This document shows positions 20,719 through 61,782 of a stretch of DNA of 64,000 nt, piece after piece; within the stretch, counting starts at the first letter, position 1, and every line of letters begins with the position of its first letter. The notes below the pieces were generated by a model. The model made no database searches and was not told where the DNA came from. It worked only from the letters and a program-made list of their open reading frames with translations. Source of the DNA: Campylorhamphus procurvoides (lineage: Eukaryota; Chordata; Aves; Passeriformes; Dendrocolaptidae). The translations under genes and the position numbers were made by a program. Where the stretch lies: positions 124,001 through 188,000 of the forward strand of contig WBMV01000074.1 in assembly GCA_013396655.1 (NCBI GenBank), in the 5' to 3' direction.

Positions 20719-23700
20719 ATGGCACTGCACTGCACACGTCTGTTTCTCTTGCTTGTGCTGGGTTCGTGGTGGCCAGACTCAGAGAAACGTGTGGTGGGAG
20801 CCACGAAGGTCAGGGAGCACTATATAGCTGCTCAGATCACTAGCTGGACCTACAAACCTGCATCTGAGGAAAAGTCCAGGTAACGAAGTACAGGATAAGA
20901 AGGATGAAACTAGTCCTCCCTTGTGACTGAGAAGTGGTTTGTGTCTCCCGTCTCCTGTGAAATTGTAGAGCCCAGGAGGACTTTAGAGCCTGCTCTGTTG
21001 AGTTCGGAGGAACTTGGCTGGCTTTGAACAGCATGATCTGAACTGGAGCCAGTGAAGTATTAAAAGCTCCCTTTTATTTGCTCCAATAGTGGATAGAATT
21101 ATTTTTATGTTTTCAGAGCACTTTTGTTAAGTATGTTCCAGGGCTCACCTTTGTCATCTTCTATGTAGGTTGATGTTTGTTGTTCCAAGGTATTTATTTT
21201 ACATATATGGATTTTGAACAATGTTAAGTTGAGCTATGGTTTGTGAGATTGCAAACATTTTCAGATTTTAGAATTTGCTGAAGGAATAAGTATGTTCCAA
21301 TATGGATTCTATCACTTTCACTTAAATCAGAGCCTGATGAACTTTGGAACTAGCTGTTGTTTCTGACTTGTTCAGTAGCTTTGTGAAATGTGCATCCTGA
21401 GTTCTGCCGAGTAAAGGATCAAGCATTGCTGTACTTCATTAAGTGAAAATACTAATTTCACTTGTTTTCTGATAGCAGTGCAGAGTGGGCAGCCTACCTG
21501 CATACATCAATCAAGCATATAAAATTTGCTATTTGTATTACCAGTATTATTCCTAGGTTTATAAACACTGCAAGTGCAATGCTACAGATTACAAATGTGG
21601 ACTTAATTTAGAATTCTGCTTAAGTTAAGCAAAAAAAATTACTAAAAATTGAACACTAAAATTAATTAAAATTACTTGTTCTCCTACATTGAAAATGCAT
21701 TTGAATACTCATGCTTATATATATATAGGTGAAATACTTGTTTTCCTTATTTTTTAGTTTATGATTTTTTTTTTCTAAACATGTAATTGCATTTTGGGAT
21801 AAGATGGAAAAAATACTTTCACTTCAGATTGTGACTTTTTAACTATTTTTTTTCTCAAGACTTAATTAAAACAAAGTTTCTCTGATTTCTAAAATCCCCC
21901 TTGGAAATTTAATACAGCGGGTATAAGCATAATGTCAAAACCAGAATTTAAATGTAGGAATATGAAGCCAAAAGCCATTTCGATGCTGACCTGGGCATGT
22001 GAATGTGCTAATTGGAACTTCATTCTCTGCACTGGATGCATCAATATAAGCATCAACTGCTGTTTCATTAAATGTCACATTGTGGATAGACTTTCATGCA
22101 CAGTGAGTACAGACTCACAAGACTCTTTCAAACCTCAGCTGAAGTACTGTGGGATAACTCAGGAGTATTTCATATGCAAAGCCTAGTGAGCTGTTTGTCA
22201 TAAGTATTTTGAGCAAGTCACATCCCAAGGAGTCCAAAGAACTTTATAGAGCTTATAGAAGTTTAACTAAAAAACAAAACAAACAAATGAAAACCACACT
22301 AACAAAAAAAACAAAAACCAAAAAAAACAACAACAAAAACAAAACCCCAAAAACAACCAACCAACCAAAACACCAAAAATTCAAAAAAACTCCAACAAAA
22401 CCCACCCAGTTCAAAGATACTCCCTGAGGAAGAGCTAATGGCTTGGATCCCAAAACTATTGGGGTATGTAACTTGTGCTGATTTTGGTTGAAGCTGAATG
22501 TCTAAATACAGTGTAAGAATCTGATACTTTGCTGCTTTTGGTTCTAAATAACTGAAGATAGGCTGAAAAGAAAATGGTTCTTCCTGAACTCTTTCCTTAA
22601 TTGTCCAATCATACAGGCTAGAAAAGGATGCCTAACATCTCTGAGTGTCAGTCTTATCTTCACAGAGGTTTGTTACTGTTTACAAGTGATATTTATAAGG
22701 CACTTCTGAGCAAAGTGAAAATCCCTGCATGCAGTGTTGCTGCATTCCTAAAAGTTATGTAACTATGCTTGCATAGTCTGAGATTTCTAAAGTGTTAGTG
22801 AGCTATGTATTTGGTTCCTTGTAGCTGTACGATTGGCACTGATAAATTTAGTCTTCCATCCCATAGTCTTATGTGCATATTCTGTTGAATATTGCCATGC
22901 TAGGGCAGCACTTGTCAATGTATGTTATGGATGGGGTCTTTCTTTTTCAAGTAAAACACAATTTTACACTGGAATCAACATGAGAGAAATGCAGAGACAC
23001 AACCTGCTTCTGCCTGACTCTGCTGGTGCAAGCGAGTGTCGCAGGGGAATTTACAAACGATCTCTCAAAAAGAGGTCTCCCCCTTATGGACCCTGGATGC
23101 CACTGAAGTGAGATCCCTGTGTTATCTCTGCTCAGCCCCTCTGTGCTTGAGCAGCCCATCAGCTCCCCACTGTCAAATGTGATTGAAAGGGCATTGCAAA
23201 GAAAGCGAGTGGAATTACTGTTGGATTCAATTATCATACATACTACAATAAATCAACCAATAAATGTGAAAGGCTGTTATCCCTCTAGCCCTCTTCTCAT
23301 CATTTTTTCCATTTCCAGAAGTGTTGTGTGCTGGTTTCCTTCTGCTTGCCTAAGTATTTTCTAAGAAAACATCGTATGATCTACTGAGTGCCAAATCACT
23401 TATGTAATGAGACTAGGGGCACTTGCAGTGTTTCTCATTTTCTGCCTTGCTGTGAGAACTTTAGTTGTTGTCAGGGAATAGTTTTGTGCTTGTCTCCAAG
23501 GTCATTGCTCTGACTGGAGCTTGCTGTTAATGCTGTGGAATCCTTCTGGCGAGTCCTTAAGTTCAAGTGTGGGGCTGAGTAAAAACCTGAATTTCTTTCT
23601 TTCACTGTGTTTTGTCAGATGCTTTCTAGGTTAAGCACGGTTGAGACATTTTCCTCTGTGTCTCGGGCAAAACAAAGACATCTTCATCCTAGAACCAAAA

Positions 23701-26700
23701 GGATCTGTAGAAGCCATCAGCATAATCAGGGGTGCTAGGTACTGTAATTTAATGTCCCATATGAAATGATCTAGCTCAGGAACATCATAGATTCAACAGA
23801 GCAAGAGGGAGAGGGGAAGACACTACAAAGAGTTGGACTGTGTGCTTTGCCTTCAGCAAAATGTGCAAGTGATTAAATGTAATTCCAGGATTCATTTTCT
23901 GAGAATATCCATTTAGCAGCAATGGCATCACTGAGAATCTTTGTCCTTTCAATTTTTTTTTATTTTTTTGAACTCTTTTGGTTTCAGATTGGAATACTCA
24001 GATCCTGTGTTTAAGAAAATTTCTTACAGAGAATATGAAGGGGATTTTCAAAGAGAAAAGCCAGCAAATACATTTGCAGGTAAACAGAAGGGAAATGTTC
24101 TGAGTATTTCTGGTTTTCCTTGTTTGAAATGACAAGAAAAGTAAGCTTGTATTTTTGTGTCCATTGTTTGCACATAAACCAAATAGGCACAGGGCATGAG
24201 GTCTCTACAGTGCACGAGGCTTTCAAAGGCCGCAGAGAGTTTGGACTTTCAGAGGCTGTGACTGTCTGCAAATTAATTGTACTATACGGAGTTGCTCCCT
24301 TTGTTTTCAGCATCTGATGCAACTTCCCATATGCATTTAGATTTCTATGGCACGATCACAGTGGTGACACTATAAATTCACATGGAAAAAGCCCAAGGCT
24401 TGAGGCAAAATATGTTTCTGATAGACCAATGGGAAGGAAAAACTGAGGCTGAGTGTGACAGATGTCCCCTTGCCTTTGTGTCTGTTACTGCTTGAAGGTG
24501 CTTTAAATGCATGGAGGCAAGTTCTCATACTTATGCCAAACATAAGTATGATCCTTGTATTCTGATACTTAGAATACTTATGTAATCTGTCTGGGTTTCA
24601 TATTTATAGAGAAAATAACTTCAGATGTTAAATGTTCAGATTTAGATTTCAAAATAAACATGTGTGAGGTTGGTGATATGAAATTATTACAAGTTGCCCT
24701 GAAAGGTCTAGTACATAATCTGATTCCTTTCAGTTTTGTTTGTTCTGCTGTGTTTTCCAAATCTGCTTCTTTCTCTTCGAAGAAAGAGATTTATAAAATA
24801 GTTTACAAGAAAAGAGCCTAATAAGCCAAAAGCTGTCGTAGCAGTTTCATCCGTTGCTTATTTTTCCAACATTGGGAGTAAGGATAAAAGCTTCTCTTGA
24901 AACCTTTTGCAGGAAATGCCTCAAGAAATTTGCAACATGGATGTGATTATTTGTTTGGATAGCATTGTGGGATGGAAAAATCTCTTCATTCTGTGACTTC
25001 TAGCATTGAGAGTACTACTCAGAGAAATGTGCTTGAATGCCTTTCTCTATACTCTTAAACTGTAAAATGTCTGTCTTCCTAAAGCTGTTTAATTAAAATG
25101 TATTTGAAAGATTGCTAGAAATTTCTAATGAACCTCAACATTAATATTTTGTTGTGGGTTTTTTTATCTGAAAGTAACTTTTTTCCCCTGCCCTAAATCT
25201 ATTATTTTCCTGTAATTTTTTAGTGTTTGTTACCAGGTATTCAATGACTATGAGCTGCAGAATTTAAATCCCTATGTGTCTTTTTATGGGTAAATCTTTA
25301 TTGCAGTGGTATCACATTCTCCGTATTAATTTTGCAAATTGTCCTTTGAGAGCTGATGTTTCCTAATGGGGGATAGAATTCTTTGTTTCACTAAACATAC
25401 TGCTTTGCTCATGTTTTCCTCTTTCTTTATCTTGAATAACTACAGGACTTCTGGGACCAACTCTGCGTGCCGAAGTGGGAGATACTTTAGTAGTTCACCT
25501 TAAAAATATGGCTGACAAGCCAGTCAGCATTCATCCCCAAGGTCTAGCATACAGCAAAAATGAAGAAGGTAAATGCTGTAAAAACTCTGTGTTTGGTTAA
25601 TTTCCTGGTAGGCTGATGCATGAGATATTGAGAGAGGTCCAGGCCAATGTTTGAGGAGGTGTGTAACACAAATATCTGTTTTTCCTGAATTGAAACTTCA
25701 CATCCATTCTCAGTTCCTTTGCTGTTCATCAGTGTATCACTAGGAATATGAGCTTCACCTGACATGGACAGCCTCCTGACTAGATGTCTTCTGGAGGTCG
25801 TCTGGTCCACCCCCATGTAATTGCAAGATATTTTATTTCAGGATATGTAAACTCTTAAATACAAGGCTTAGAACCATTCCCAAATCCCTTGCATTAGCAT
25901 ACATCAAGGCATTATTGGTAAAGACAGTTAACAGTGCTGGTCATGCTGTTGTGATATTCAGCATTTAGTACTCAGCTTTGTGGTGTTTTGCTCCTGGAAC
26001 CCTTGTGAGACTAGCAAAAAGAGATCATAAGCTATGACCAAATGGACAGTAAAGTGTCTGCACCAGCACAAAGTGAGTTGATTGCTCATGCTTCTTGGAT
26101 TGCTCTGCCTTGGGTACTGAGTCAGAGCTCTGACTTGCAATTTACAAATTGATTCAAGGCTTTGTTTGCTGTGTGGGTACAAAGAGAGTTTTGCAACTCC
26201 ATCTCATGTAGCTGAACAGAACATCTCATTGGAAAGGATAGGCATTTCAGTTTGACTGTCTTATTAATTTATGTGCCTTTTGCACCTAGGATTTTGATTC
26301 TCTGGCTCCCCTTTGCCATATTGCAGATCTGTAGGATATGGCAGGAACAGATACGAGCCATTACTGCTCATTACCTGGAAATGCAGTGTACAAAAGACTT
26401 AAGGCAGCAAAACAATGCCAGCCCATGCAGTGGCTTTATGACAGACAGAAAGGTGACAAAGTGGGCAGTATTCCACTGCAGAGCATCAGTGGCTGAAGCT
26501 TCATGCCATCCTAACCCTAATCAGAGTGATGAAGAGCCCAACCTTTTGGCAGTGAAGATAGTTCTAGGAAATCTTTGATCTGTAAGAAACAGGGTGGTGG
26601 AGTAGCTACTCTCCCCACGCTACTCTCTCTAGTGTGAGTGGAATCATGAATTCTCTCTTTGAAGCTGACGTGTCATATGGGCAAGGAAAAAAGTCAAACT

Positions 26701-29700
26701 CTTGAAACAGAGGATATTCCAGCTGTTCTAGTTGCTCTTTGTCTTCATGCCACCCTACTCTTTTCTTTGCAGGTTCCCTGTATGATGACAGAACATCATT
26801 TGCAGAAAAAAAAGATGATGCTGTACTTCCAGGCCAGGTCTACACATACGTGTGGGATGTATCAGAAGAAGTTGGTCCAAGAGAAGCTGACCTTCCTTGT
26901 CTTACTTATGCTTATTATTCACATGAGAACATGGCAGTGGATTTTAACTCTGGTCTGATTGGAGCATTGCTTATCTGTAAGAAAGGTAATGAAATGCTTT
27001 ACGATTACTTTGACGTAATACAGTTTCATTTTCTCACAAAGTTAAGGTTGTATGATATTGAGGGAAAATACAGGTGGGGTTTTTTTCACATCTTTATATG
27101 CAATGTAAAATGAACATTTTTCAACATCATTCTTTTAGATGTTAAAAGTAATTAAATGCCAGCTTTCATGCAGTTCCATCCTATAATTACAGGATGGACA
27201 GAGAACATTATTAAATAGATACATTTGTCTGTACTGGTTGCATTTTCAGTTGCTTAACTACTAAATATATGACCTCAAATTTCCTGTCTTAGAATATTTT
27301 TTTAAACTTCATTCAAAGTGGTTCAGCCACTTCAGAGAACAATTCAAGAAATAACTGTTTTACCCATGCCTTTTAAAGGCTCTCTGATCAAGAGCCTGCA
27401 GCACTGTCTCTTCTGTAACAAGGGTTTAAAATTGCAGAGTAGTGTGTCTTTTGCTAGTCATTTGAAAACATGGCCAAATTTGAACAGATTATAAGTCTTA
27501 AAATTGTTTTTGCATTCAAACAGATACTTTAGATTTTAGCGGTCTGAACCACTGAATTCCATCTCCACTAATAAGAACTGGTGTGTTGGAGGACTTGTAA
27601 ATAGCTGCTAGATGCATATCACTGGTTTGAAGGACATTTGAGACAGAATGCCATCACATAAACTTCCTAACCTAATTGCTGGTGCCTTAAATTGAAAGTT
27701 TTTCCTGGTTATATATATCCTTGTTGTAGTGAAAGCACTGCGAGTTGTTCAGCTTGATCCTCTTTTCCTGCAGTTTGAATCAAAAATTTTGTGTAGACTG
27801 TGAACTGCATGGACTTGGACCTCAAAGCTTCCCAAAAGTAAACATAAAACTGGTTCAGTGTGCGGTTGCACAAGGACACTCTCTTGACTGATAGATATCC
27901 ATTTCATTGCAGAACACGCCTACTCATATCACCTCAAAGGAGTGGCATTAGTATTAATTATGTTCCTCCTGATTTTTATTTTTTTTTATTTTGAGGATTG
28001 GTACTCTTAGTATTATCTAGGACTTATTATTTTCCTTATTTCTTGGCTTTTCTTTCTCTGTGGTTCTGTGTATGTGTGCGTTTTATGGTATACTGGTGGA
28101 GCTAATCTGAACAATTACTTTGAAATTACTTCCTTCTCTGGCTTCTCAAATTCATGCATATATTGTGGGCTTCAACTGGATATAAGCTTGAGATGGACTG
28201 GTGTAACCACTGCCTTTAAGACAATTTGACCATATGTTTCTAGCTAGAGCAAAGACAAACAGTTCACTGTGCACATTTTTAAGATTTCTGAACACAGGTT
28301 CTTTGACTGGGCACTGTGTATGGCAGGTGTGCAATATACCTGTGTGTTTGGTCTGCCTCATACAGAGTTCAGTGTCTTCACTCATATGAGCAGTTCATAT
28401 GGTGCTGTATTTGGGATTTTTGGCTAAATAGCATTGATAATACACCCACCCATATTTGAGCTATTTCCTGCTCAGAACTCCCCGCTAGTTGGCTGGGGTG
28501 GGCGAGAGGTTGGAAGGGAACTCATCCGGACAGATGAACCCAATTGGCTAAAGGGATATTGTCTACCATGCAACACCATTCTCCAATAAAAACTGGAGGC
28601 AGAGGAAGAAGAAGCAATGTGGGGAGAATGGGGGGTGTTGACTTCCAAGGTGGCTGCTCCTGAGAGACTGGCTGGGCATCAGTCAGCTTGTGGGAGATGG
28701 TGAGTGATTTCTTCTGTGTTGTTTGTTTTTTTCCCCTCTGTCCTACACCTTTAAACCATCTTTATTGACCTGTGAGTTTTCTAATTTTTTGTTCTTCCTG
28801 TTTTGCCTCCTGTCCTGTTGGGGATGGGAAGGCATTGAAGTGGCTGTGTGGGTGTTTGGCTGCTGGTTGGGATCAGCTCACCACAGTCTGACACGTGAAG
28901 AGCAGCATAGGTGGTAAAGGTTATAAAAAGTGGACTTTTGAGTTAAAGCACTGTCTGAGTGTTCTTTTTGTGAAAAGTAGATAAATTCCTCTGTTGTTTT
29001 GACACTTCTTTTGTGAAGGAAAACAGGACTTTGTAGCCTCTCATAAATATTATATTAAAGATAATTACTTCCACTGCCTCTTTTCCTAAGCGGAATAATC
29101 AACAAGTTCTCAAATTTTCAGTTCCTTCAGTCTAGAGGGACTGGATTATGTATTGAAAGTAGCAAAAGAAAGGTTTTGATGTGAGCAATCTACAGAAAGA
29201 ACCAGTAAAATCACACCAGTTCTGTGTGGCATGTCCAGAATGAATACTGCTTCTTGGTAGAAATCACACCTGTATCACAAAACAAACTGGACAGTTTCTT
29301 GTAACTGATCCAGTTCAGCAGTATCTATTGAAGTATTTTGTATGTAAATGTTGTTTGCTGAGTGGTCAGTTTTAAGCTTTTCAAAGGAGCTGATGACCTC
29401 AGTATAGTTCTTGAAAAGGTACTGTCCACACTGCTGGTGACTCTGCCATCTTTGTGCTTCACAGTCTCAAAAAAGAGGGCAGCACCTGATTGTGAACAAA
29501 AGGTGTTTGGCACTCCCATTCATTAAGGCAATCCCTAAAACACATTGCCAGAATTATCTGAGACTATTCCTTGCATGGTGTTTATCTCCTCTGGATTTTG
29601 CAGTTACCCAACCCAAAAGTACTTTCAGAAATAAAATCACATTGTCAGTGTTCTTAAGGCCTTATTTTGGTCAGGCTCTGTCAGTACATGCTAACAGGGG

Positions 29701-31795
29701 AACAAGCTCATTAAATATACATTACTGCAATTACATGGATGTGAAAACTGCTTTACTTTGTATTAGGTTAAAACCTATTGTTTCTCCTTCATAGGAAGCC
29801 TAAATGAGGATGGGTCACAGAAACTTTTCGACAGGGAGTATGTACTGATGTTTGGTGTGTTTGATGAAAACAAGAGTTGGCAAAGATCAGCATCAGTCAA
29901 GTACACAATTAATGGCTATTCTGATGGAACATTACCAGGTACTGTTCAGGCTTCTGTGAAATGAAATTAACATCGAAGAACACTGAATATTACCTTTATT
30001 TGCTTTTCATGCATGTGAATAGAAATATGGAGAAATAGTAGAAAAAAGCTGTAGCCTTTTTTAGAATGTGTCTGTGAGCATCTAAATTCTATAAGAAAAG
30101 CTCTGCTGCTGGAAGGAAGCCATGCCAAATTGCTGATAGGAGCAATAAGATTACTTCTAAGAAGTATTCTGCTTGAAGGACAGGATCATTAACTCTAAAA
30201 AGAAATTAAACTCCATCAATTTTTAACTCAGCTGATGGGGAGAGAGTAATGTGATTAAGTGAACTGTTTGTTTTACAGCATATAGAGTATAATAGCTGAA
30301 GAACTTCCTGGAAGTAGAAAGTTAGTTACCAGTAAGAGAGAAGACTAGGAAGGTGGTAATGGGGCTATTCTATTACAGGTCTTTTTCCCTGGTTCCCCCA
30401 AGGAAATACTTTCATATCTCTCTCCCGTTCATTGAGCAAATACAAAAGGTCTTAAGTGAGTTTTTTAAAACAAATATTGGATGGGGCAGTTACTGTCACT
30501 AGACACCACACCATCCTTTAGCTTGCATCCTTGCCTTGTTCTCCTTCCCTGCCCTGTTCCTCTCCTCACCCCTCAAAGAAGGACAGATCAGCTTTCCAAA
30601 AGAGGGTTTTTTCCCTTTTGTGCCACCTCAGTGTAAGGTTGGCATTTGCAGGTAAGATATAAACACCTATGTGCCACTGACGTCCAGGATTTTGGTATCT
30701 GTTCCATTTATAACCTTCATCTTGTTGCAAACACTGATCCCAGGCATCAGAGACTTATTTTTTTTAACATTTTCAGTGAAGATTCACTTCAAACTTAGCA
30801 TGCATGGAGAACTTGAATGATTTGCCTGCATTATGAACCCTATTCTCATGTCTCTTTCAGATTTAGAGGCTTGTGCTTATGACAACATTAGCTGGCATTT
30901 GATAGGAATGAGTTCCAAGCCAGAAATCTTCTCCATTCATATCAATGGCCAGTCCATGGAGCAAAGACATCACCGAGTTTCTACCATTAACCTGGTGGGA
31001 GGAGCATCAACCACAGTAAACACGACAGTGAGTGAGGAAGGAAGGTGGCTCATATCTTCTCTTGTCCAAAAGCACCTGCAAGGCAAGGAAACATCTATTT
31101 ATTAGGCAGCTGTAGAGTTGTCCTTCTGTTTTTTATGTCCCAAAAGGCTTCTACTGTTTTGCAACATCACAGTTAATCTATTTCAGGGGGTTTTGTAATT
31201 TCAGTAAAAAAGCACTGGAGAACAGGGAATTCTGTTGAAATGAAAAATGCATGATGAACTAGAAGACTTATCTGCAGCTTTACTGCTGTGTGCAGGTCAC
31301 AGAACAACAGGGAGTCAATACTCAAGCATCTGAGTCTCTGTGAGCTGTTCAGATAAGCACCATTATGAAATGAGTAAGGAACCACCTGTTTCCTGAGAAA
31401 CTGAATACTTTCAGCTATGAGCAACTTAATCTGATGAAAATATTTGCTGTTCATCATCTGAAAGTGGTATTCTGATAATATCAGGAAAAAGTAGCTTTCA
31501 GGCCTGAAAAGGTGGCAGTCAGATGAACAAAGGCTTGCTGGCAGCCTTAGCTAAAGGAATGAGAAACACAGTTGGACTGGTAAGAGCTCATCAAATGGGA
31601 AATCACTGTGATACTTTCTTCTCAATTAGCTGGAATGCATGGTTATCTCACTGTAAGAGATTGTGGGGACAAAGAGGTGAAGAAGAGTCGTCTCTCCTAT
31701 AAAGAACGTCTTATGGTCAAAAACTGGGAATATTTCATTGCTGCAGAAGAAGTTACTTGGGATTACGCCCCGACTATTCCAGCCAGCCTTGATAG
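20719..31795 (+). CDS. F5: F5 exons 1-7: signal peptide and A1 domain
   Basis: Residues 1 to about 374. The hydrophobic core [11 protein letters not shown] of the signal peptide is followed by the mature N-terminus; the exact cleavage site is uncertain. Cupredoxin-like A1 landmarks are [61 protein letters not shown] and [17 protein letters not shown]. The segment around human Arg306 aligns without gaps over 33 residues (AGMHGY... to ...NWEYF), and the Arg306 position is Val335 here (codon 31677-31679). The nearest downstream arginine is four residues later. Confidence 0.93.
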
Positions 31796-34700
31796 GTAAA
31801 GTAATACTTTGTCAACATAATATGGAATGATAACATGAAATCACAGGATAATTCAAATTGGAGAGAGCCTCTGGGGATCTAACAGCGAAGTTGGATCCTG
31901 TTGTACCATATCTAGTTGTGGTTTTATTGAGTCCAAGGACAGGGACCCCTCAGCTTCTCTTGGCACCTTTGCAACCTCACACTGAAAATGTTTTTCCTTA
32001 TATCTGATCAGCCTTTCTCATGTTGCACCTTGTGTCTCTTGTGTCTCATCTCTTCACTATGCACCTCTGAGAAGAATATGGTCCTGCTTTCTCTATAATA
32101 TCCCGTTTGGTAGTTGAAGATAAAAATAAGATGCTCCTTTAGCTGTGTCTTCACATGGCTGAATAAATCTGGATTTTGCTTCTATATCAAGTGCTCTATC
32201 TCTCTGATCACCATGGTGGCCCTCCACTGGACTGTCACCAGCACCAATGACTTTCTTTGCTGAGAGGCCTGAAAGTGGACACCTTCTTTTGCCTCTCACA
32301 GGGAGCCCAAAATAGGAATATGACTCTAGGAATTGCCCAAAGTAGCATGCAAGCCTATTTTCTAAGATACTTTTTAACATGAATTCTGCTGAAATCAACA
32401 ATCATTAAGAGGAAGGGAAAGGGAAAGTGGCAATATTTCTGGAGATTAAAAGTTTCTTAGATGTTCAGTACAATAAAGTGTTTAGGGACTGGGAGAAAGC
32501 GAGTTCTCTCTATAAATGACCTTTGCATGGCATGTAGATGTAGTAGGAGTCATAACAAGTAAGCATAAAGGGCTATTTTGTTCAGCTTAAGATAAATAAA
32601 AGGAATTCTGTAACATACATGATGTTTCAGTGTACAGTGCTACCAGTGCACTGTAAGGCTAAATTTGCAATCGATCAATTCCCCGTTGCTATTCATGCCT
32701 TTACAAGCCTTTACAAGCTGATATTCGTAAGAACCTTTAAGGATCAAGCAGAACAAGACAAATGCCTTTTTCTGTAAGGGTTATAGTTTCAAATACCTCC
32801 TTAGAAATACAGTGTTCGTGTAACACTTCCTTCTTTGGCGTGATTTGCTTCCCTTATTTGCTTTTGGACTGCACGGAACAAGCTCTTACATCTTTCCTGC
32901 TAGTCACACAATTACTTAACCACCTCAGTGCTCTGACTTCTCCTCCTTTGTTGAAAACTACACAATTTATCCCTATTCAGTAACCTTTTTTGGACTGCAA
33001 GTCACAACAAACATTACTCGGTGTAACTTCCCAGTATTTATCGTAGTTTTGCTCTCAGCATTAAAAATTTTAATGTTTTAACCCTTAGCGTAGCACTACT
33101 TATTGTGTAGTGCTTGACTGGGGTTAAGTTTATCTGTTCCTGTTTCTCCTGAATTCTTTGCTACTGTAAGCAAATTGTTTATTTTTGCTATGCCTAACTA
33201 TGCCTTTTTAAAAGGAGAACAATGATTTCTGTTGTCTTACCTTGGAAATGTCCCTACTTCTTCAGCTTGTTTCTTTCTTATATGTATACCATGTTAAATT
33301 AAATGTAAACTCTGATACTAATGGGTCATGTGTGATATTGAAACACAAGTAATGGTCCAAGATTCTTCTTACCTAATTTAGGTTAGAATTTGGGGTGAAG
33401 AGCATTAGGTTAGTTTAGGGTTTGGATTTGTTTTCAAGCAGTGAGGTTTCTACTAGTAGTTTGAGTACTAACTTTATATTCTAAATGATGTCACTATTCA
33501 AATTTTGTTAATCATTTGTCTTTTCCTTTATTTTTAAGACACTATAAAACACAACACTTGGACAACTTCTCAAATCTAATAGGTAAAAGGTATAAAAAGG
33601 CTATTTTCAGGCAATACACTGATGCCACCTTCACAAAACGTCTGGAAAATCCCCGCCCCAAGGAAACTGGAATCTTGGGCCCTGTTATCAGAGCTCAACT
33701 CAATGACAAAGTCAAAGTAAGTAACATAAATACAGAGATTATCTCTACTGTAGTATAATTTTCATTGAGGCAGAGATACAAAAGAAGTAGTTTGATTTGT
33801 GTTTTTTGTCAAAAAACATAGCTAATGTTGTAAATATTTGCCCTATTAAAAGGTACAATCACAAGTTTAGCTGGCACTTTTGGGCATTCCCTCTATAGTT
33901 TCCATGACTGTGCTTTATTTTACTAAAATAAACATCCTTCATTCACAGTCTTTGTAAAATATATGTTGACACTGGTCCAAACTGGGAAAAAAGCTAAACC
34001 AGGGTAGACTTCCTGGGGGATTTTATATGTGAGGCCAAACTTCGTGAATCACTCATTTCTTAGGTTGATTTTTTTCCTGACTATTTTAGACAGTGGTGAT
34101 CAGTTCCTATAGTTCAATGTTCTTTCATGAAGTTATACTATGGAACTACAAAGTACTTGCTTTTTAAGCTTGTGCTGCTGTCACATCCACTTGTTTTTCT
34201 GTTGTCACTTAATGATGCATCACAAAGTTCCATGACTTTTAATTTCCATCATTTCCACCGTGGCTCTGTGATTCTGAGTTTAGGATGTTTTGTTGTTTGG
34301 GTTTTTTGATTTTCCCCCCTCCAGTTTTCATCAAGAATGGGCAGGACATTTTGCCTCTTCCTTACATATCCACATTAGGTCTTGGAATTGGTTTTAAAGA
34401 TTTGGTTTTAAATTTATTTTCTCCCATATTGAAGGTTCTGAAGGACTTTAGTCAATAACTTCATATTCCCAGAGATAGTGTGCGCCTAGTAAGTGGAAGA
34501 ACAAGTGTTCCTTTTAGACTTTCCAGAGAGCAGGTGTAAGCAGCTGAACTTCACTCAATGAGCTCTCCAAAGTCCAGAAGCAGGGTACTAGCATCATTTA
34601 GACTTTGGGTTTATATTATCAGACAATATTTAGTACATCCCTTTGCCTTTCTGGCACTTCCTGGGCTGAAACCAGGCAAATCCATTCTACCATAGTGAAA

Positions 34701-37700
34701 ACTTTGTTATGTATTCAGACAAGGATGTGTTGAATACTAATTTATTTTTTGTATTTGCCTATCAATATAGATTGTATTCAAAAATAAGGCTAGTCGACCC
34801 TACAGCATTTACTTCCATGGAGTGACACTTTCAAAGAATGCAGAAGGAGCTGATTATCCTCTGGATCCCACAAGTAAAAACTTTGTGAAGTATATTTTGT
34901 CTATCACTGACTGTTGTGGATGGTTTGCTTTGAAGGAGGTGCTGTGTGTAGGAATGTGCATGACTGGGGGACCTCTGTTCTGTGCTCTGCCTCTGCTTAC
35001 CTGTCTGTTGCCTTATAGAGAGACCAAGCTATTATCTGCAAAGCAGAGACAAATGCCTTTTTTTGCTGGCTTAGTTTTCTGTTCTTGTTTGTGGCTTTAG
35101 AGAGAGACAAAATTCATTCAGTTATCTCAAGGTGGCTTGAAATGGCCTAACTGCATCAATGTCATTACAAGGTGCAGCTTGATATTAAGATCTGGCTCTC
35201 AGTTTGTATCATTACTGCTCTCCTTCTTTGTTTTTCCTTAGGCAATGGCACCCAGAGTAGAGGAGTTGAACCAGGGAAGACATACACTTATGAATGGAAA
35301 ATCTCTAAAACAGACCAGCCCACTGCACAGGATGCTCAGTGTATTACAAGGCTATATCATAGTGCTGTAAATATTGAGAGAGATATTGCCTCTGGGCTGA
35401 TTGGCCCACTTCTGATCTGCAAAAGTGAAGCGCTGACACAGAAGGGTGTGCAGGTAACTTGCTTGGCAACCTCTGAGAGACAGATATGGCTCAAATAATG
35501 TTATTTGATCTACAGTGAATTTAGTTTTGCTTCCTTAAAGAACTCTTCTCTAAATTTTCCTGTCGCTATTTTATCTTCATCCTCTAATGACATCCAGGTC
35601 AGACCTGATCCCTTTCTGTAACAGATATAACTCAACAGTGTCTGACAATCTCAGGCATCAGTGAATCCAAACAGCATATGCTTAGATCAAGACAGAAGTT
35701 TGATCCTTTTATAGAGGGCCCAGCCATAAACCATCTGTGTATCAGCAGTGCAAGTGGCTTGCTCAGTGCTCCATGACAAGTTGGTTGCAGCAGTAGTATT
35801 GTGACCTTGAAGCCTTGAGCCCCCACTCCATTTCCCTGAGCCCTTGGATCATGCTTACCATTACTCTGGTGAAGCTTATGTTGCTTGCATAGTAGGAAAG
35901 ATTGTAAGATTGAGTCCTTAATACGTGTCTCTGCTCATAAAATGTGACTGCTGTGTTGATTGTCTTTCAGAAAAAGGCAGATGGGGAGCAGCAGGCAATG
36001 TTTGCTGTGTTCGATGAAAATAAGAGCTGGTACCTAGAGGATAACATCAAGGAGTACTGCAGCAACCCAGCCAGTGTTAAAAGGGATGATCCCAAGTTCT
36101 ATAACTCGAACATAATGCACAGTGAGTGGGATATCAAGATGAATAATATGAAAGCTTATATGAATGTGCACATTCAATGATTGCTTATTCTTAGAAGTAT
36201 GTGGTAATCAGGGAATTCTGTAGAGAGTCAGTCACCTTCTAACCATGCCAGGTGGCACTGTACAGAAACATTCAATATCATAGAATTATTAAGGTTGGAA
36301 AAGACCTCCAAGATGGAGTCCAACCTTTGACCTAATACAACTGAGCCCACTAAACCATATCACAAAGTGCCACGTCCACTTGTTCTTTGAACACTTGGAG
36401 TGATGGCAATTCCACCACTTCCCTGGGCAGCCTCTTCCAGTGGTTAACCACTGTCTCAGTGAAGAAAATTTTCCTAATGTCCAACCTGAACCTCCCCTGG
36501 TGCAACTGGAGGGCATTTCCCTTTGTTCTATCACTAGTTTTCTGGGAGAAGAGGCCAACCCCCACCTTGCCACTGGGGACCAGGCTGGCTCTGGACCTTG
36601 AAGCAAAGGCAAGGGCTAGTTAAACTTTGATGCAACATCCCCAATTGCCTTAGAGATACTGTTTCTAGAGATGGACTCTCCATCAAGGCTACTGTGATTT
36701 CATCCCGGTGCCAGTGTCTTTCCAGGTGAAAATGTGATTCCAGTTCAGTGGACTGACATCAAAGAGCAAGAGGTTTTAAAAGTCTTGCTCTGAAAATATT
36801 GAGACAACTTTTACTTTGCTTTCCTTTTAGCAATAAATGGCTACGTGTCTGACAGCAGTGAAATCCTTGGATTTTGCCAAGACACTGTGGTTCAGTGGCA
36901 CTTTTCCAGTGTTGGCACTCATGATGAGATTGTCTCTGTTCGCCTTTCCGGACACTCTTTTCTGTATCGAGGGAAATACGAAGACACATTGAACCTTTTC
37001 CCTATGAGTGGAGAATCGGTCACAGTGGAAATGGACAATGGAGGTAAGTGGTAGAATTATAGCGTTTGACAGCTCTTCTAAGACATTAACTAAATCTCCA
37101 GTCTATAAAGACTTACCTAAATAAGAAAAAAACACTTTTCAGATAAACACAGTGTTGGAAACGTTGAATCATTCCCCAGTGCAAATGATGTGTAGGGAGT
37201 TCTGTTGACTACACAGACTTAGCACACATAGCATAATTATAGCTATACTAAGGCTCTTTTTGTTGGTTGTCTTGTAGTTTGGTTTTTCTCCACTTCATAA
37301 TTTGTATTTGGGTTCATAATGATCATTTTAAGGCAATTTTAAGATTCTCCTTTGAAGTGATCCAGTATCCATTCCATTGCATGATTCCAAATTTTGCCAC
37401 ATACTTGTCCATCCTGAGCAGGCTTAAATGGACCAAAACTGTCAAATTTTGCTAATCACTACAGGACAAAATACCTACACCTCACCTTAGGCCTGTGGTC
37501 ATTTAGCAGCAGTAAAGTCTGCCTGGCTGAACTGGGTCAATGATCCATCGGATGCATCTCAGTGTCCAACTGGGATTAACACCATATCTTGAAAAGGGGG
37601 CACTAGAACCCATGTAGTCCACACTTGAAGAATCTCTGTCCTTTTGGAGGTAATTCCTTATCACTGAAGTCTATGAGCTTTTAGTGAACATCCTAAAATC

Positions 37701-40700
37701 CCACAAGGTTTAGGTATCCTTATCCCGTTTAAAATACCAATTTTCTTGTATGTTTTGTCTATTTAAATAATAGATTCTCTATGTTCTCAAAGGTTTTTTT
37801 CATTGATCGCACAGCATCAAGACCTTACAACTTACAAATGTATGGTGTGTTAAGTGGGTTTTAGTGTTCAAGACTAGGGAATCACTAAAAACTCCATTAG
37901 ACATTACAGAAACCTCCTCAGTAAAAAAGTTGTACTTTTGCTTGATACTGGTATGTGATCTATTCTTTCCATCTAGGGCGTGTTTTCTTTGATAAATCTG
38001 CTGCTGATAGAAATCAGGAAAGCTGTGCAGGTCACATCAAACTCTGATAAAGAGAGGAATAATTGTATGTGACCTTTTTAATAAAAAATACTGTTTTTCT
38101 CAAGCTCCATTAATTCTGTCTATTCTGTCATTTCCACTAGTTCCAAAAGCAAACTGTCAAGCAAACGACTTGATTTGATGTTGCTTAAAGAAACAGATTG
38201 TATTTTCTTCTCTGCAGATACTAGTTTCAAATAAAGAACTTAACTTCTTACTAGGTTTTGGAGCAATTATAAAACCTTTTAATTAATCTAAAATGCCTTA
38301 GATTGGCAGCTTAATGTTTTGTGTCAGATTAAAAATTCAAATTACTTTAATCTTATCATACATATACTTATTAAAGATCATTCTTTATGCATTCAAAAAC
38401 TTTTAAAACACTGTTTGTCAGATGTTTGACAACATTGCCTCAGAACCTATTTGTTCTATCTGTGTGCTAGTGCATCCAACAGTAAGGACAGGATTAAATT
38501 GAAACTTCATCTCAAGAGGTCCCAATCTCAGATGCAGATCTAAACATAGGATCCTTTATTTTCTTTCTTTCTTTCTTTCCTTTTCATATCCATCTCCTTC
38601 ATGGATTATGTTTGGACTCAGCTCCTAGGTGCAGCTTAATATGTGAAGAAGAGTTCCATCTCTTAGATGTATGTATTTATTTATAAGTGCTCTTATTTGT
38701 TTACATTTATTGCTTATTTTTCATTGCAATTATTGCTCCTGAAACTCCCCGATGACAATTAGCATTCTGCTATAGCAGGTGCTGTAGAAACAAACACAGC
38801 AACTTGCCTAGGCCACTTACGTGATAGACAATGTTCATTCTCCTAACACTTTCATTTCCATCACAGGTACTTGGCTTTTAGCATCCTGGGGTACCCCAGA
38901 GATGAGTTACGGCATGCGGCTGAGATTCAGAGATGCCAGATGTGACTATGAGGAAGACTACACTTTTGATGTGGTGGATGTCACTCCCACCAAGACTGAA
39001 AAAAAGGCTGTTTCCACCTCAGTTGAGGAAGAAAAAGAAGAAGAAGAAGATACGGAGGACTCAGATTATCAGGAATACTTGGCTTCTTTTTACTCCATCC
39101 GAAGCTCAAGAAAGGCAGCAGGTGATGAAGAGAAACAAAACCTTACAGCACTAGCCTGGGATCAGTATGAAGACACTGATGCCATGAATTCTGAGGTGGC
39201 AGCTGGCTCTGATCTGACAGCTATTAATAGCACTGAATCAACAAACAACTCTAAATTCTTAGAAACTCAGGTCACTCCTCTTCCCCTAGTCAAGACTGAA
39301 ACATTCGAGTCAAATCACACATCAATCACAACAGAAGAGGATTTATTTTTAGCTACCACAAGTGATGAAAAGGCTGACTTGGGATTTGAGAACAGAAGCC
39401 AAAGCAAATATGAAATAGCTCACAGTAACATGTCTGCAGGTGAATACTTGCTGAGCAAGGGGGAAGGCCCAGTGAATGTTGCAGAAGAGCTTTCAGCTGG
39501 TGGAAAGGACAGTAAATTTGTTTCAGAAGAAGATCAAGAGGAAGGCACAGGAAGAGGAAATGACACCATTAGGAGGAAAAGGCGACGCTCACTGGCCATG
39601 AAGTTTTACTCTGTCCAAAAGATGAATGCTCTTCTAAATCATGTACGGAACAAAAATGTCTCATTTTCTGACAAGACTACTGCACCTCCTTCTGTGCATC
39701 ACACAGAAAACACATCCAATACAGCCATGGTGGGAACTGCCCAGCTTCTGAGCGATTATGATGATGAATTGGAAGAGGAGGAAAACAATATGGAAAATGT
39801 TGTGCGTGCAATTAACTTGACTCTTTTTTTGGACCTCGTAGCAGAAGGCGGGTCTAATGCATCCAGCCTTTCTGAACCCAGGGTATCCAAACATCAACTA
39901 GCAGATGCATTATCTTTAGCTCATACTTTAGATGATAGAGACCCTAATTCCAGCCCTGCAGTGGTGAAGAACTTACTAGAAGAATCATTGCCCAGGACTG
40001 GGAAATACTCATCTAAAATGACTAGTGAGGAATGGAATTTGGTGTCTGCAAAGGAGAGTCTGGGAGTAGAGAATAATTTAGATAAATCTGTTGGTGGTAA
40101 GTTAAATCATCATGGCAGAAATGGTACAGCATTCATAAATAAGGAGGATATGAAGAAGTATCAAGAGTTCTCACATCTAATGGGGGAAAACCAGAAGGGA
40201 AGCCCAATGCACCCAACTGTGAAAGGAAAGGAGGGAAACAAGAATGATACTTTGAGTACATCTGGAACCTTCATCAAGATACGAAGGAAAAAGAAGGAAG
40301 ATCCAAAAATGACCCACTTGCTGGGCCCAAGGAGTAGAAAGTCCCAGATAGTCCCCAGTTCTATGGCAGGGTTTGGCCGTATGACGTCTTCAGGTGAGAC
40401 CAACCACACGGCACTGCTGTGTTGCATGAACACCACAGGGACACCCAGTGAGGCCGACAATGCAATGGATCTGAATCGGGCCAGGCACAGAGAGCTGCAA
40501 AATGACACACTCACCCCACGGCAGCTCAGGCCATCCATCACAATTGGGCTTCCCAAAGAAAATGGAGACTACGAAATCGTCACAGGAGACTCTTACTGGG
40601 ACGAAACCTCAGGTGTTGAATATGCGTACCATTATGTGAACATTGATGACCCATACATGACAGACCCCAAGGTGAATATCAACGAGCAGCGTAACCCGGA

Positions 40701-43700
40701 AAACATTGCTGAGCACTACCTGCGCAGCAGAGGGAATGAGAGGAGATACTACATTGCAGCTAAAGAGGTCTGCTGGAACTATGCAGGATCTAAAAAAAGG
40801 TTTGGCTAAACTGTTGGCTTTCATTTTGCACACCATCCTGACATGCACTAGCAGAATGCTGATAAAAGGAGGCTTGAACCCTCTAGAAATGTGATAGAGA
40901 TTATTACAATCAAGAGCAACACAGCTAAGACCTCTTCCTTTTCTCTTTTTTCTTAACCCACTTTTGTAGACTCATTAGAAACACTCTTTAATACAGAAGT
41001 TAAAAATCTCACTGTAAGACAGAAACTTGCAATTAGTTTTGTTATGCTTGAATTACCTATTCTAGTTCCAACTTGAATTCTTCATACCTGTAGTGGATTT
41101 TCAGAGACTAGTTGGAGTTTTTCAGTGATAGCTGACCAAATTGTTGAAGGATCTTATACAACTGTAGAGCTAGAATTGCTTAAACATTGCAAATCATAGT
41201 ATTTAGAATCATCCAACACTTTCTTCATGGAATCAGAGAATCATTTAGGTTGGAAAAGAACTCTAAGATCATAGAGTTCAACCTTCAACCCAGCACTGCC
41301 AAGTCCACCACTAAACCATGTCCATAAAAGCCACATCTGTATGTATTTTAAATACCTCCAAGGATAGTGACTTAACCACACTCCTGTTTCAGGGCTTGAC
41401 AATTCTTTTCTAAAGAAATTTTTCCTAATATCCAATCTAAACCTCCCCTGGCACAACTTGAGGCCATTTGAGTGTTTATTCTTTCTATTCTAAAATGTTC
41501 TTGCTGTATTAGTTCTCAGGTTTCATCAAAGCTGTTATTTCTGTTTCACTGTGTGAGTTTTTAATTGGGGCTTTCCTTTCAGTCCAATGATGAGTGACAA
41601 AACCTGTAAAGATGGCACCAGATATAAGGTGGTTTTCCAAAGCTATACAGACAGCACCTTTACGACTCTTCAGGATGAAGATGAATATACAGAACACCTT
41701 GGCATCCTGGGGCCAGTTATCCGAGCTGAAGTGGACGATGTTATCCTAGTAAGTCAGTGTTCTGAACATGTGTGCAGGATGAGATTCTTATGGTGGTCTT
41801 AGACTGTGACATAGAATGGATCAAAAAAACCCCACAAATTTTTAAAAGATGATGATGGGGAAACAGTTTTCAAGGCTAGAAATTGCACTGCTGATAAACA
41901 AGTACTGTGATGGGTTTCTTTGAAACATATCCTTTTTCTCTTCCATCCACAGTGAATTAAATTCTGTTTTTCTTTCTTATGTTTCCCAACATTAGATACT
42001 GGCTTATCAGTTTAATGTAAAATGAGACTTAGGTTTAATGTTAATGAAAAATTAGTTTTCTAAACTCAGATAGCACTGAAAATATTATTTTCTGTATGTA
42101 AAGGGAGCTTCTTAATTTTTTTAAAGAAAGGAGTAAATTTGTGTTGAAGATTAATATATAGTTTTTGGGAAAATATATAATTTCCTCCAAAAACCTTGTC
42201 TGTAAATGTTGGGAGATTTGCATTAGGAAGTACATTGCTGTAAAAATTCCGTTGTCTCCTTCTTCATCCAGTCTTCCAACACACAGGGATGGACTGAGAT
42301 AGGGAGAGTAGATCTTGTTGCTTTCTCCTTATCTCAGTAGGGACAGTGTGCAACAGGAGCACACTGAGCTACATTTAAAACATGAGTAAGAGAAGACAAA
42401 GGGTTTTATAGCTTGGGAGTGTCATTCTCTAAGGAGAGGTAAATATGAAATCTCTTTATCCTGGTGCTTCTCTGGGACAAGTGTGAAGCACTGATACCAG
42501 TGAGAATGATACAGAGGCCGAGTTACTATTTTGTGCCTTTCTTTAGTACAACTGCAGCAAAGCATAGGAGGGTGAAACTCCCCACCTGCCTGCCTGCAGT
42601 AACTAAACAGTTCCAGGTATGAGGGGCAGCAGCAGCAGTCCTAGGAGCTTAGGCTCAGTGGAAGACAGGGAGCTAGACTTGTGCTTTCTGATTTTTCATT
42701 ATCTACCTGCATCAAAGATGGTGACTCAGCATGAAGTGTCAAAAGCTATCCCTGCCAGCTTTCCCATGTACCATGTAACCTGTAATCATTATACAAATCT
42801 TGCCCCTGGTTTGAAGTCAGAGAAATGTATTTTGTGAGGACTTCAGTTTAGGCCTGAATTCGCTGAATAGAATCTACTTTTCTTTTAGGTTCATTTTAAG
42901 AATCTGGCATCCAGACCATATTCCCTCCATGCTCATGGACTCCTCTACGAAAAGTCTTCTGAGGGAAGCATTTATGATGATGAATCTACTGCTTGGTTTA
43001 AGGAAGATGATGAAGTCCAGCCAAATAACAGCTATATATATGTATGGTATGCAAACAGGCGATCAGGACCTGTGCAGCCAGGAGCAGCTTGCCGGTCCTG
43101 GATCTACTACTCTGACATAAATCTGGTAAGGAAACCAAAAGAGCAGTGGTCGTGTTGCTGGGGTTGATCCAAGAATCACAAAAGCATTTATGTTGGAAGG
43201 GATCACTGGAGATTGTCTAGTCCATCCCCACAACTCAAGCAGGGCTGGTCCAGGATTGTGTCCATTCGGGTTTTGAATATCTCCAAATGATGTTACTGTG
43301 TGGCTGTAGAAATGCAAGCTGCAGAACAATCTTCGGGTAGCTATCCTTCCTTTTGGACTCAGTGTTCCTATCTTACATTTAATCTCTTACATTCAGCTAA
43401 AGGAGGACATAAGCTGTTGAAGAATTCAAACTGGGGAGCTCTGGTAGTCTGAGCAGGGGACAGTAAAAATACAAGGCAACAGCAATTCTGGAGCCTGCTT
43501 CAGATATTCAGGGCCTGATGCAATCCTGCAGAATGCTATGGGGGGTTTTTACATCTTTTGGGAAATCCTCTTTTGCATCTAATATGAGTGTATTACATTC
43601 TAGGAGAAAGATATTCACTCTGGTTTGATTGGGCCAATACTGATCTGTCAAAAAGGAGCCTTCAGCAAATCAAACAACAGAGGGACATCTACCAGAGACT

Positions 43701-46700
43701 TTTTCTTGCTTTTTATGGTCTTTGATGAAGAGAAAAGCTGGTACTTTGACAAACATTCTGGAAGGCCTTGTAGTGAAAAGACCCAAGGAACGCAGCAATG
43801 CCACAAATTCTATGGTACTTACTTCATTTTGCCAATTATTCAGTTTATTGGAGTAGGGGGAAAGATGTTGTGGGAGGTATCTCAGATAAAAATCCTTTTC
43901 AAGATGTATAAATACTACATGTTAATTATGTGAATGACTTTTTTTTGTTATCCGTTGTACTCATAATCATCATGATTTTATATGTAAAGATTGGCAATGA
44001 CTGGAAATTTTCTATTAAAATGAAGAAAGGGCATACTAGACTGAAACTTGCAACAAGAAACTTCTCTCTTGCACTCATACACATCTATCTCCTACATTAA
44101 AAGGAAAAAAGCAAAAACAAAACCCACAAACAAACAAAAAATCCTCCTGCTTTCAGAATACCCCAACAACTTTTTGCAAGGAATTTAAAAATATCATAAT
44201 AATTTGGCAAACCAACTAGTTTTATTGAGGAATTCAAAGCAGCTGTAAAACAGCCCTTCGTATGCCTACCTTTTTGTGGATATAGATAGAGATTTTAGTG
44301 GTTGACACTTTTTTCTCTGTGAAATAATGGTCAGTAGTGAAACTCTTTGTTTCTGTCTTTGAAAAGCCGATGCTTGTGTGCTGTGAGTGACCATGTTTGA
44401 AAAGGACATGTTGAGAAGTGGAATCTGCCTTTCGAAAACATGGTCTGTAAAGTCAGGTATTAATCACAGATGTCTGTAGTATCTGTGTGCCTGTGGGAAT
44501 GTGAGCTACAGAACACATTTTGGATAGCTGTCCTTTCTTTTGGGCCTGCTATTCCCATCTGACATTTATTCTCTTTGTTCTCCTGGCTGCCATGTGCTGC
44601 TAGCAAACTGTGCTTAAATCCTCTGGTGAGGTCACTGGATTTTCTCAATTTATTTACATAGGCTGTAAAGTGTGTTGCACTTTGAATTAGAAAAAAGGTG
44701 CTGTTACTTCATTGAATATTTTACTAATTTTAATAATTACATTCTAGCACTTTAAGAGACCTGTTTTGTGAGAAGTTTTCCTTACTAATATTTTTTTTCC
44801 AGCCATTAATGGGATTACCTACAATTTGCAAGGCTTGAGGATGTATGAAGATGAACCAGTTCGATGGCATTTGCTGAATATGGGTGGGCCAAAAGACATT
44901 CATGTTGTTCATTTTCATGGTCAGACCTTCATAGAACAAGGGGAGCCAGAGCATCAGCTTGGTACATATACACTCCTTCCAGGTAAGTATCAGAGCAAAG
45001 TTCTGAGAGGTGATCAGTGCAGCCTGTTGTCATCATATCAGGTTTTTTGCAATCTTTTTGTAATGTCAAGGTGCGTGATACAGGACAGGAAGAACAAATG
45101 TGAGCCCTAGGAGAATTCTTATGTCCGGGGAGAAAGGAAATAGGCTAAAAATGTTAATTAGGCTACTGTGTCACTGTCAGCAGTGTGTGTGCAGTAGCAG
45201 CATTTATGAAGCCTGTGTTGCCAGCTACGAGAGGTTTAAAAACAGGGGAAAAAAAAGACCAGGAGATCAAAATAATGGGATTGAGTTAGAATAATAGGAG
45301 TTTGTTTTAGTGAACACTCATAGTTTATTCACTATTTTATTTCATTACTTTTAAGGTGGTGCTTTCCACTATGAAATCTACGTATTTTTGTTTAAATGGG
45401 AACCAGAATTATCATGTCTGCAGTAACTAGGAATATAGGAAAAGCAAACAGCCAAAACGGTACCTCCTTCCTGCTCAATGCCTGGCACTTCTGGGTCATG
45501 CAGAAAGTGGGGGGTGGGCCCATTGATCTGATTCTCCCACATCCACTTTTGGCTTCTTTACATCATCCTTTACATGACTTGAACAACCCACTGGGGCAGG
45601 AGGAGTGAGAACCTGCACCAGCACTGCAGAATTAACATCCCAGAATTATGTGATAGACTTGATAGCTCTGTTCATTACACAGCTCAGCACTGTAGTTAAT
45701 GTGCAGGTATCTGTTGTTACATACAGGCATCCAAGGTTTTGTACTTTGCACCAGCAGCAAAGGTAGGGTTTTGATCTGGCCATTTAAGTCCAGTCTCAGT
45801 CTCCAGCTAGAACTTCCTTGCTAAGAAAACAAATCTTTGAGATGGTGATAGTTATTGCTCTCTCTGCAATGTGTATTTAAATTTTCTGGATTAAGTCATA
45901 GGATGGTCTTTGGTTTAATGTCCAACCTCATAATGCTAATGTTTCTGATACATTTCTCTTCCTTTTTTTTTCAAGGCTCATTTAGAACAATTGAAATGAA
46001 GCCACAGAGACCTGGCTGGTGGCTTTTAGACACTGAAGTGGGAGAATATCAGCAAGCAGGAATGCAGACATCCTATTTGGTTATAGAGAAAGGTACTGAA
46101 CTAGGGTGGTTTTAGCCTGGGGGAGTCAAGCTATAAAGCCTTCTCTGCCCTTTCAAGATCACTAAAAATAATCTTGGGAGATTGTTCTGCAGAAAAACAA
46201 AGGAGATTGTCTGTGCATTCAAGGAGGGGGTAGAATGGTTACTGTAAATTTGTTGTAGAAAAAAAAAATTCTTGGCTTCCAGCAGTACTAACTTTTAATT
46301 ACTTTGCTTACTACCTTTATACCTTTAGCACAGTAGCTTTCAATTTGAGGTTTCCCCACAGTGAGAAGTGGATTAATCTATTGAGATTGCAGGCCTTAAC
46401 ATGGATTTCTCTGGGAAGGGAGTGGTGTCATAGTATTACTAAGAACTGTTTTGTGTGATGTTGTCTTTGATTTCACCGGCGTATATACTGGAATATCACT
46501 CATTTTCTTTAACAAACTTATTGTGCTCTCTTTAGGGTGCAGGATTCCAATGGGTCTGGCAAGTGGCGTTATACTCGATTCGCAAATTGAAGCTTCAGAT
46601 CACATAGGTGAGTTAATACTTGAAAAGGTCCATGCATGCTCCTCAATATCCCCAGAAAAGTGTAGTTGGTCCATATTCTTTCAGCATCTTATGATCTTCT

Positions 46701-60955: not shown

Positions 60956-60958
60956 ACT

Positions 60959-61565
60959 TGCCCCTGAGGGGGAAGGGGTGATGAAGAATTTTGGAGGGCA
61001 CAGTGACCCACGCGGGTCCCCAGCCCTGTCCCCGGGGGTAAATATGAGATGAGGAATATGGGGGGCACAGTGACCCACGCGGGTCCCCAGCCCTGTCCCC
61101 AGGGGTAAATATGAGATGAGGAATATGGGGGGCACAGTGACCCACGCGTGTCCCCAGCCCTGTCCCCGGGGATAAAGGTGTGATGAGGAATTTGGGGGGC
61201 ACAGTGACCCACGCGGGTCCCCAGCTCTGTCCCCGGGGGTAAAGGTGAGATGATTAATTTTGGGGGGCACAGTGACCCACGCGGGTCCCAGCCCTGTCCC
61301 CGGGGGTAAAGGTGTGATGATGAATTTGGGGGGCACAGTGACCCACGCGGGGCGCCAGCCCTGTCCCCGGGGGTAAATGTGAGATGACTAATTTTTGGGG
61401 GCACAGTGAACCACGCGTGTCCCCAGCCGTATCCCCGAGAGTAAATGTGGCATGATGCATTTTGGGGGACACAGTGACCCACGCGAGTCTCAGCCCTGTC
61501 CNTGCCCCGGGGATAAATGGGAGATGATGAATTTTGGGGGGCACAGTGCCCCACGCGGGTCCCAG
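60959..61565. repeat. GC-rich minisatellite, about 67-bp unit, nine or more copies
   Basis: The anchor CACAGTGACCCACGCG recurs at 60999, 61066, 61133, 61200, 61268, 61334, 61402, 61470 and 61542. The spacings are 67, 67, 67, 68, 66, 68, 68 and 72. Each unit carries GGGGGGCACAGTGACCC, CACGCGGGTCCCCAGCC and TGTCCCCGGGGGTAAA. One N interrupts it at 61502. The long minus-strand open frames come from a unit lacking stops in all three minus frames; 67 is not divisible by 3, so the frame cycles. Confidence 0.95.
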
Positions 61566-61589
61566 CCCCCCCACCCCGCACACACGTGT

Positions 61590-61782
61590 TTCAAGCCCCG
61601 CCCACGGGGACGGTACTGACCAATCAGAGCGCGGCTCTCAGCCCCGCCCCCGCCGCGCCGGCCAATGGCGTTGCAGTGCCGCCCCAGGTGCCGGCGGCGG
61701 GAGGTGCTTCTCGGAGGTGACCCGGGACGCGCCCGCCGCGGCAGCGCCTCCCGCCCCGTCAGCGCCTCCCGCCCCGTCAGCG
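61590..61782 (+). promoter_or_regulatory. SLC19A2: CpG-rich SLC19A2 promoter region
   Basis: Very GC-rich with two CCAAT boxes (61620-61624 and 61662-61666) and GC-box motifs (CCCCGCCC at about 61596-61603 and 61642-61649). It lies directly before the sequence gap and before SLC19A2 exon 2, as expected of a TATA-less housekeeping promoter. Confidence 0.7.

Follow-up and report, generated by a model that had tools for sequence, protein, structure and literature searches.

The coagulation factor V gene (F5) of the bird Campylorhamphus procurvoides encodes a protein in which all three arginines cut by activated protein C (APC) in human factor V are replaced. The gene lies in a 64,000 nucleotide stretch of contig WBMV01000074.1 (positions 124,001 to 188,000, assembly GCA_013396655.1), referred to here as the window, and coordinates are those of the window unless another contig is named. 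The best explanation, given a probability of about 0.68, is that this is an intact sauropsid factor V orthologue whose A1-A2 heavy chain is of a sauropsid type rather than a damaged form of the mammalian one, and on which APC would act more slowly and partly at other sites. Factor Va is often assumed to be braked in general by the Arg506/Arg306 switch.

The three APC columns

The replacements had been claimed in an earlier note made from the sequence alone, and they hold to the nucleotide. By both phmmer and MAFFT, human Arg306 corresponds to Val335, Arg506 to Lys535, with Gln534 in place of the preceding Arg505, and Arg679 to Val708 (Table 1). The phmmer alignment of the heavy chain with solved structures is gap-free through the 306 and 506 columns. 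There is less certainty about the Arg679 column. It lies in a region of low complexity, and upstream of it phmmer inserts two one-residue gaps that cancel out, where MAFFT inserts none; both programs give Val708. The stretch of 53 residues around Val708 that was said to lack any arginine was also found, at residues 685-737. Where the mammalian-type set has Arg306, Arg506 and Arg679, this factor V has Val, Lys and Val. A gapped alignment that shifts Arg339 onto the Arg306 column (KKSR on human KKTR), and would return an arginine to the scissile position, scored 73 against 87 and was rejected.

The loss of 306 and 506 cannot be used as statistical proof of selection, and this was rejected, since 17 of the 28 human heavy-chain arginines (positions 1-660) are something other than arginine here anyway. 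Arginine is found at 11 of these 28 positions in the window protein and at 6 in the snake protein described below, and on that background the probability of losing both 306 and 506 is approximately 0.36 (17x16/28x27, worked by hand). Because arginines turn over fast in the heavy chain, their count alone is uninformative on selection, and between the human and window lineages the 306 and 506 columns are no more constrained than those of the other arginines. The notable point is that sites of known function have been hit while at least two of the three thrombin arginines are kept. The earlier statement that all three are kept is clearly right for the first (Arg738, human Arg709) and the last (HYLR at residue 1279, human 1545), both of which align clearly with the human sequence. 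The middle site (human 1018) is likely to be LLGPR, in a stretch that phmmer aligned only below significance.

F5 is single, complete and on the + strand, with exons spanning 20719-52393, and was joined under the rule that introns are GT-AG and the reading frame is kept. The resulting 25 exons contain a coding sequence of 5,811 bases for 1,936 residues with a single terminal stop. Intron 6 is GC-AG, its donor GC lying at 31083-31084, and all the others are GT-AG; a small class of introns is known to be of the GC-AG type. It is very improbable that wrong exons, a pseudogene or an assembly error masks the true arginines. The GC donor could hint at a misplaced boundary and no other support for such an artefact was found, whereas every exon is in frame and the surroundings of 306 and 506 align gap-free. 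The genome searched comprises 1.02 Gb in 2,666 contigs, and no second F5 copy carrying the arginines was seen in it, an exon 13 query matching this one place.

That the gene is factor V, as the earlier note had it, is supported by both bit scores and domain architecture. Against solved structures, phmmer gave 1222 bits for snake factor V and 1155.6 for human factor V, compared with 723.3 for the best factor VIII and 698.9 for the best ceruloplasmin, so on sequence likeness the gene is placed nearer to factor V than to either relative. Pfam matches to Cu-oxidase_3 in two stretches, Cu-oxidase_2 once and F5_F8_type_C twice correspond to the A1-A2-B-A3-C1-C2 architecture. The phmmer comparison with human factor V runs along the heavy chain and takes in exon 13 at its two ends, and the light chain was compared through Pfam. 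A separate F8 gene is on contig C2362 of the same genome. A factor VIII query matched the window F5, F8 and three more contigs (C2602, C1275 and C145), which are taken to be probable ceruloplasmin and hephaestin genes.

Comparison with snake factor V

Two factor V sequences were used for comparison, the human and one from a sauropsid, the venom factor V of Pseudonaja textilis (PDB 4bxs). The latter, a subunit of the brown-snake prothrombin activator, is the best solved-structure match noted above. It has Thr at the 306 column and Lys at the 506 column. The window protein is identical to it at 440 of 662 residues, against 397 of 660 for human factor V, and the ungapped score of the A1-A2 linker is 57 with the snake and 29 with the human sequence. 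Both linkers have an arginine shortly after the 306 column, three residues past it in the snake (TLTRKLS) and four past it in the window protein (VKKSRLS). In the A2 loop, which has been tied to the retention of A2 after cleavage (PMC8288481), a segment of 27 residues with limits chosen around human Arg439 is identical to the snake at 16 residues and to the human at 7. The sauropsid-type combination of no Arg306, Lys at 506 and a snake-like A2 loop segment is therefore present, with one sauropsid sequence as its reference.

Published work places the snake state in a wider setting. Arg306 is described as conserved in mammals only, and a linker without Arg306 as conserved across snakes and reptiles (PMC8288481). 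The liver factor V of Pseudonaja textilis has similar residues (PMC2994417), and the snake complex is reported to be without the APC sites 306, 506, 679 and 316 (PMC11511063). The earlier note worded the loss of the sites for this species, to which it is unlikely to be peculiar. A loss of the APC sites in this species or its family alone, giving a Leiden-like factor V that resists APC and is offset by some other brake, is improbable. All three arginines are gone, with residues 685-737 free of any, and a tissue factor pathway inhibitor (TFPI) with a basic tail is available as a possible brake, but the snake is alike at both 306 and 506. Because the snake has Thr and Lys at these columns and Arg306 is published as a mammal-only residue, absence of the APC sites is more likely to be a trait of reptiles and birds than a defect of one species, as judged from the sequences compared. 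The ancestor of birds and snakes probably had Lys at 506.

Published work already covers the lack of Arg306 outside mammals and the presence of Lys at 506 in one reptile. No publication on the APC sites of factor V in birds was found by a search that left out most subscription journals, and the available part of a paper on vulture factor V (PMC13183543) contained nothing on its inactivation. PMC3403913 and PMC13320979 were likewise uninformative on this point. The state of factor V on the bird side, together with a matching difference in protein C, may be new.

Cleavage, protein C and other brakes

Thrombin would be expected to activate this factor V as usual. Cleavage of the factor Va by APC would be slower than in mammals and fall partly at other bonds, at Lys535 and then at Arg339 or Arg345. 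In snake factor V, Lys507 is cut by human APC, although 750 nM is needed against 10 nM for human factor Va, and a snake linker placed in human factor Va leaves inactivation only partial (PMC8288481). The cuts made by human APC in the snake protein have been mapped to Lys507 and Arg742, with further unmapped ones between 508 and 742 (PMC2994417). The earlier expectation that the bird cofactor resists shut-off by protein C lacks support in that wording, given the cut at snake Lys507 and the presence of Arg339 and Arg345 in the linker. It does have a basis in human factor V with R306Q and R506Q, which has been described as APC-resistant already, its loss of approximately 20% being ascribed to Arg679 (PMC9637641).

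Ordinary control by a moved site, in which the bird's own APC cuts after Arg339 or Arg345 and after Lys535 at sufficient rates, is a tentative possibility. The 710-residue heavy chain has a single KK[ST]R motif, at residues 336-339, with its arginine four residues from the Arg306 column. The motif appeared in 1.15% of 200,000 shuffled linkers, and the looser [KR][KR][ST]R in 1.74%, the motif having been picked after it was sighted. Arg345 is at the human Arg316 column, the only one of human Arg313, 316, 317, 321 and 505 where arginine is kept. APC reportedly uses the R313-R321 region of factor V when the usual sites are mutated (Dirven 2010, going by its title), and human factor Va without all three sites is said to be inactivated by APC, with extra sites in R313-R321 and at R505. 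The cleavage of snake Lys507 also fits a moved site. Homology does not put Arg339 at 306, however, as the rejected alignment indicates. Because the motif was picked post hoc and the arginine in the snake linker (LTRKLS) does not figure among the mapped cuts (PMC2994417), a moved linker site is given intermediate weight. The resistance described for R306Q/R506Q human factor V (PMC9637641) also counts against it, and back-up sites may be slow.

Protein C of the same lineage was checked for changes, as the earlier note advised. Contig C258 carries a protein C gene with Gla, EGF1, EGF2, the activation Arg and protease exons up to the active Ser, including the His, Asp and Ser of a serine protease domain; the signal-peptide exon was not found with the bait used. 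It is the best match in the genome to a human APC query (215 bits, the next being 141.5), and among solved structures its protease domain matches human APC best (296.5 bits; factor Xa reaches 196.4). Basic residues number 1 in its 37-loop segment, against 3 in human, and 1 in its autolysis-loop segment, which has four residues fewer, against 6 in human. Ala190 is kept (DAC), His replaces Glu192 and Lys replaces Glu70 of the calcium loop. Ala190 is part of an arginine-preferring pocket with no preference for lysine, and this stands against a moved site that includes Lys535.

For cleavage at Arg506, APC depends on three of its loops (loop 37, calcium and autolysis), and the engineered 3K3A-APC has lost more than 90% of its anticoagulant activity (PMC7293249). 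In the protein C of this bird, two of the three loops whose basic residues speed Arg506 cleavage in humans, the 37-loop and the autolysis loop, have few such residues. This difference matches that in the substrate, and it suggests that fast cleavage at Arg506 is a mammalian feature involving enzyme and substrate jointly.

Two further observations were made on this contig. Approximately 4 kb downstream of protein C, at C258:358853-362081, there are EGF, activation and protease pieces of a second protein C-like protease, whose last exon is interrupted by an in-frame TGA and which looks like a decayed tandem copy. In protein C itself no Lys-Arg pair is seen between EGF2 and the activation Arg (C258:349122-349740, exon ends set by eye). 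Cleavage in this part divides the human zymogen into two chains, and the bird protein may circulate as a single chain.

Several points weigh against the preferred reading of a sauropsid factor V that APC cuts slowly and partly elsewhere. Recombinant snake factor V stays active even after cleavage (PMC8288481). The unmapped snake linker arginine weakens the use of Arg339, and R306Q/R506Q human factor V appears from its description to keep Arg316, which would then be a slow site. The calcium-loop segment of the bird protein C has 4 basic residues against 3 in human, so this cluster is not depleted. The sauropsid comparison is with a single factor V, from a venom, and the protein C of this genome is known from its gene.

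The search for another brake, which the earlier note implied, is justified. In factor VIII (C2362:164612-164863), Arg562 is kept (MDQRGNQ) and Arg336 is Lys (LLKMG), so that at the position matching factor V 506 both human factor VIII and that of this genome have arginine. Protein S is represented by three exon matches on contig C2157 (63-73% identity). C745 carries the C-terminal third of thrombomodulin, comprising its final EGF repeats, the membrane helix and the tail, which is 40% identical to human residues 386-568. Kunitz 3 of TFPI is on C455 (74% identity), and approximately 0.4 kb further an open frame codes for the basic tail. A TFPI-factor V brake is plausible in this animal because the B domain of its factor V, 541 residues long, has a basic stretch that starts near residue 1128 and an acidic one ahead of 1279. 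Control of thrombin generation may depend more on the cutting of factor VIIIa at Arg562, TFPI-alpha, antithrombin and plasmin, the last being drawn from PMC8288481.

It is rather unlikely that the matter goes further, with the Arg306/Arg506 shut-off and the basic APC exosite a mammalian innovation, bird and reptile protein C aimed mainly at factor VIIIa (Arg562) and cell signalling, by nature 3K3A-like, and factor Va mostly shut off otherwise. A bird without the APC arginines, but with genes or parts of genes for protein C, protein S, thrombomodulin and TFPI, Arg562 in factor VIII and a protein C with few of the loop residues that assist at Arg506, is a testable case for a mammalian brake. A brake limited to mammals would bear on the use of birds as thrombosis models.

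Gene features and likeness to known systems

Table 1. Factor V (F5) features in the window
Feature	Position	Strand	Basis
F5 exon 1 (start codon, signal peptide)	20719..20879	+	
F5 exon 2	23988..24079	+	
F5 exon 3	25446..25568	+	
F5 exon 4	26773..26985	+	
F5 exon 5	29795..29938	+	
F5 exon 6 (GC donor after)	30861..31082	+	
F5 exon 7 (A1-A2 linker, Arg306 column)	31630..31795	+	splicing, phmmer
Val335, human Arg306 column	31677..31679	+	phmmer, MAFFT
Arg339, end of KKSR, candidate displaced APC site	31689..31691	+	
Arg345, human Arg316 column, candidate back-up APC site	31707..31709	+	
F5 exon 8	33539..33716	+	
F5 exon 9 (3' end, with exon 10 start, is A2 loop segment)	34771..34873	+	
F5 exon 10 (Arg506 column)	35242..35453	+	splicing, phmmer
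Gln534-Lys535, human Arg505-Arg506 (Gln534 35439-35441, Lys535 35442-35444)	35439..35444	+	phmmer, MAFFT
F5 exon 11	35971..36121	+	
F5 exon 12	36831..37043	+	
F5 exon 13 (A2 end, acidic a2 region, B domain, A3 start)	38867..40799	+	
Val708, human Arg679 column	39010..39012	+	phmmer, MAFFT
Arg738, thrombin site (human Arg709)	39100..39102	+	
F5 exon 14	41583..41748	+	
F5 exon 15	42889..43125	+	
F5 exon 16	43604..43814	+	
F5 exon 17	44803..44982	+	
F5 exon 18	45976..46092	+	
F5 exon 19	46536..46607	+	
F5 exon 20	47625..47719	+	
F5 exon 21	49048..49203	+	
F5 exon 22	50042..50186	+	
F5 exon 23	50343..50491	+	
F5 exon 24	51263..51445	+	
F5 exon 25 (with stop codon)	52205..52393	+	

The B domain also contains a basic run, RRKRRRS, at residues 895-901 (39571-39591), a furin-like motif outside the coverage of the human alignment. 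Downstream of F5 and on the same strand there is an exon of a thiamine/folate carrier (Folate_carrier, 237.5 bits), a position that agrees with a gene order of F5 then SLC19A2. Just upstream of the carrier exon, 60859-62080 holds a run of N and, on either strand, open frames that are repeated and rich in GC. A search of viral contigs for relatives gave one pattern match, and no relative was confirmed.

Of the known systems, factor V of Pseudonaja textilis is like the window protein in having no Arg306, Lys at 506, a similar A2 loop and Arg at the human 709 site (snake Arg742). It differs in its B domain, which is 46 residues in the venom protein (PMC2994417), far from the 541 with basic and acidic regions found here. 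The human Arg316 column is Leu in the snake and Arg345 in the bird, and the column of snake Cys642, which forms the A2-A3 disulfide, is Pro in the bird.

The human variants factor V Leiden, Cambridge and Hong Kong change the same P1 residues (506 or 306) as are changed in the window protein. Leiden is carried by 5% of Europeans and is a common inherited clotting risk (PMC10883835). These are single replacements on a human background, however, whereas the bird has Lys rather than Gln at 506 and its APC loops differ as well (PMC10883835 for the human variants). The engineered superFVa, like the window protein, is without all three APC arginines. It is man-made, with Gln at 506, 306 and 679 and an added disulfide (PMC4134195), while the Val, Lys and Val of the bird are natural.

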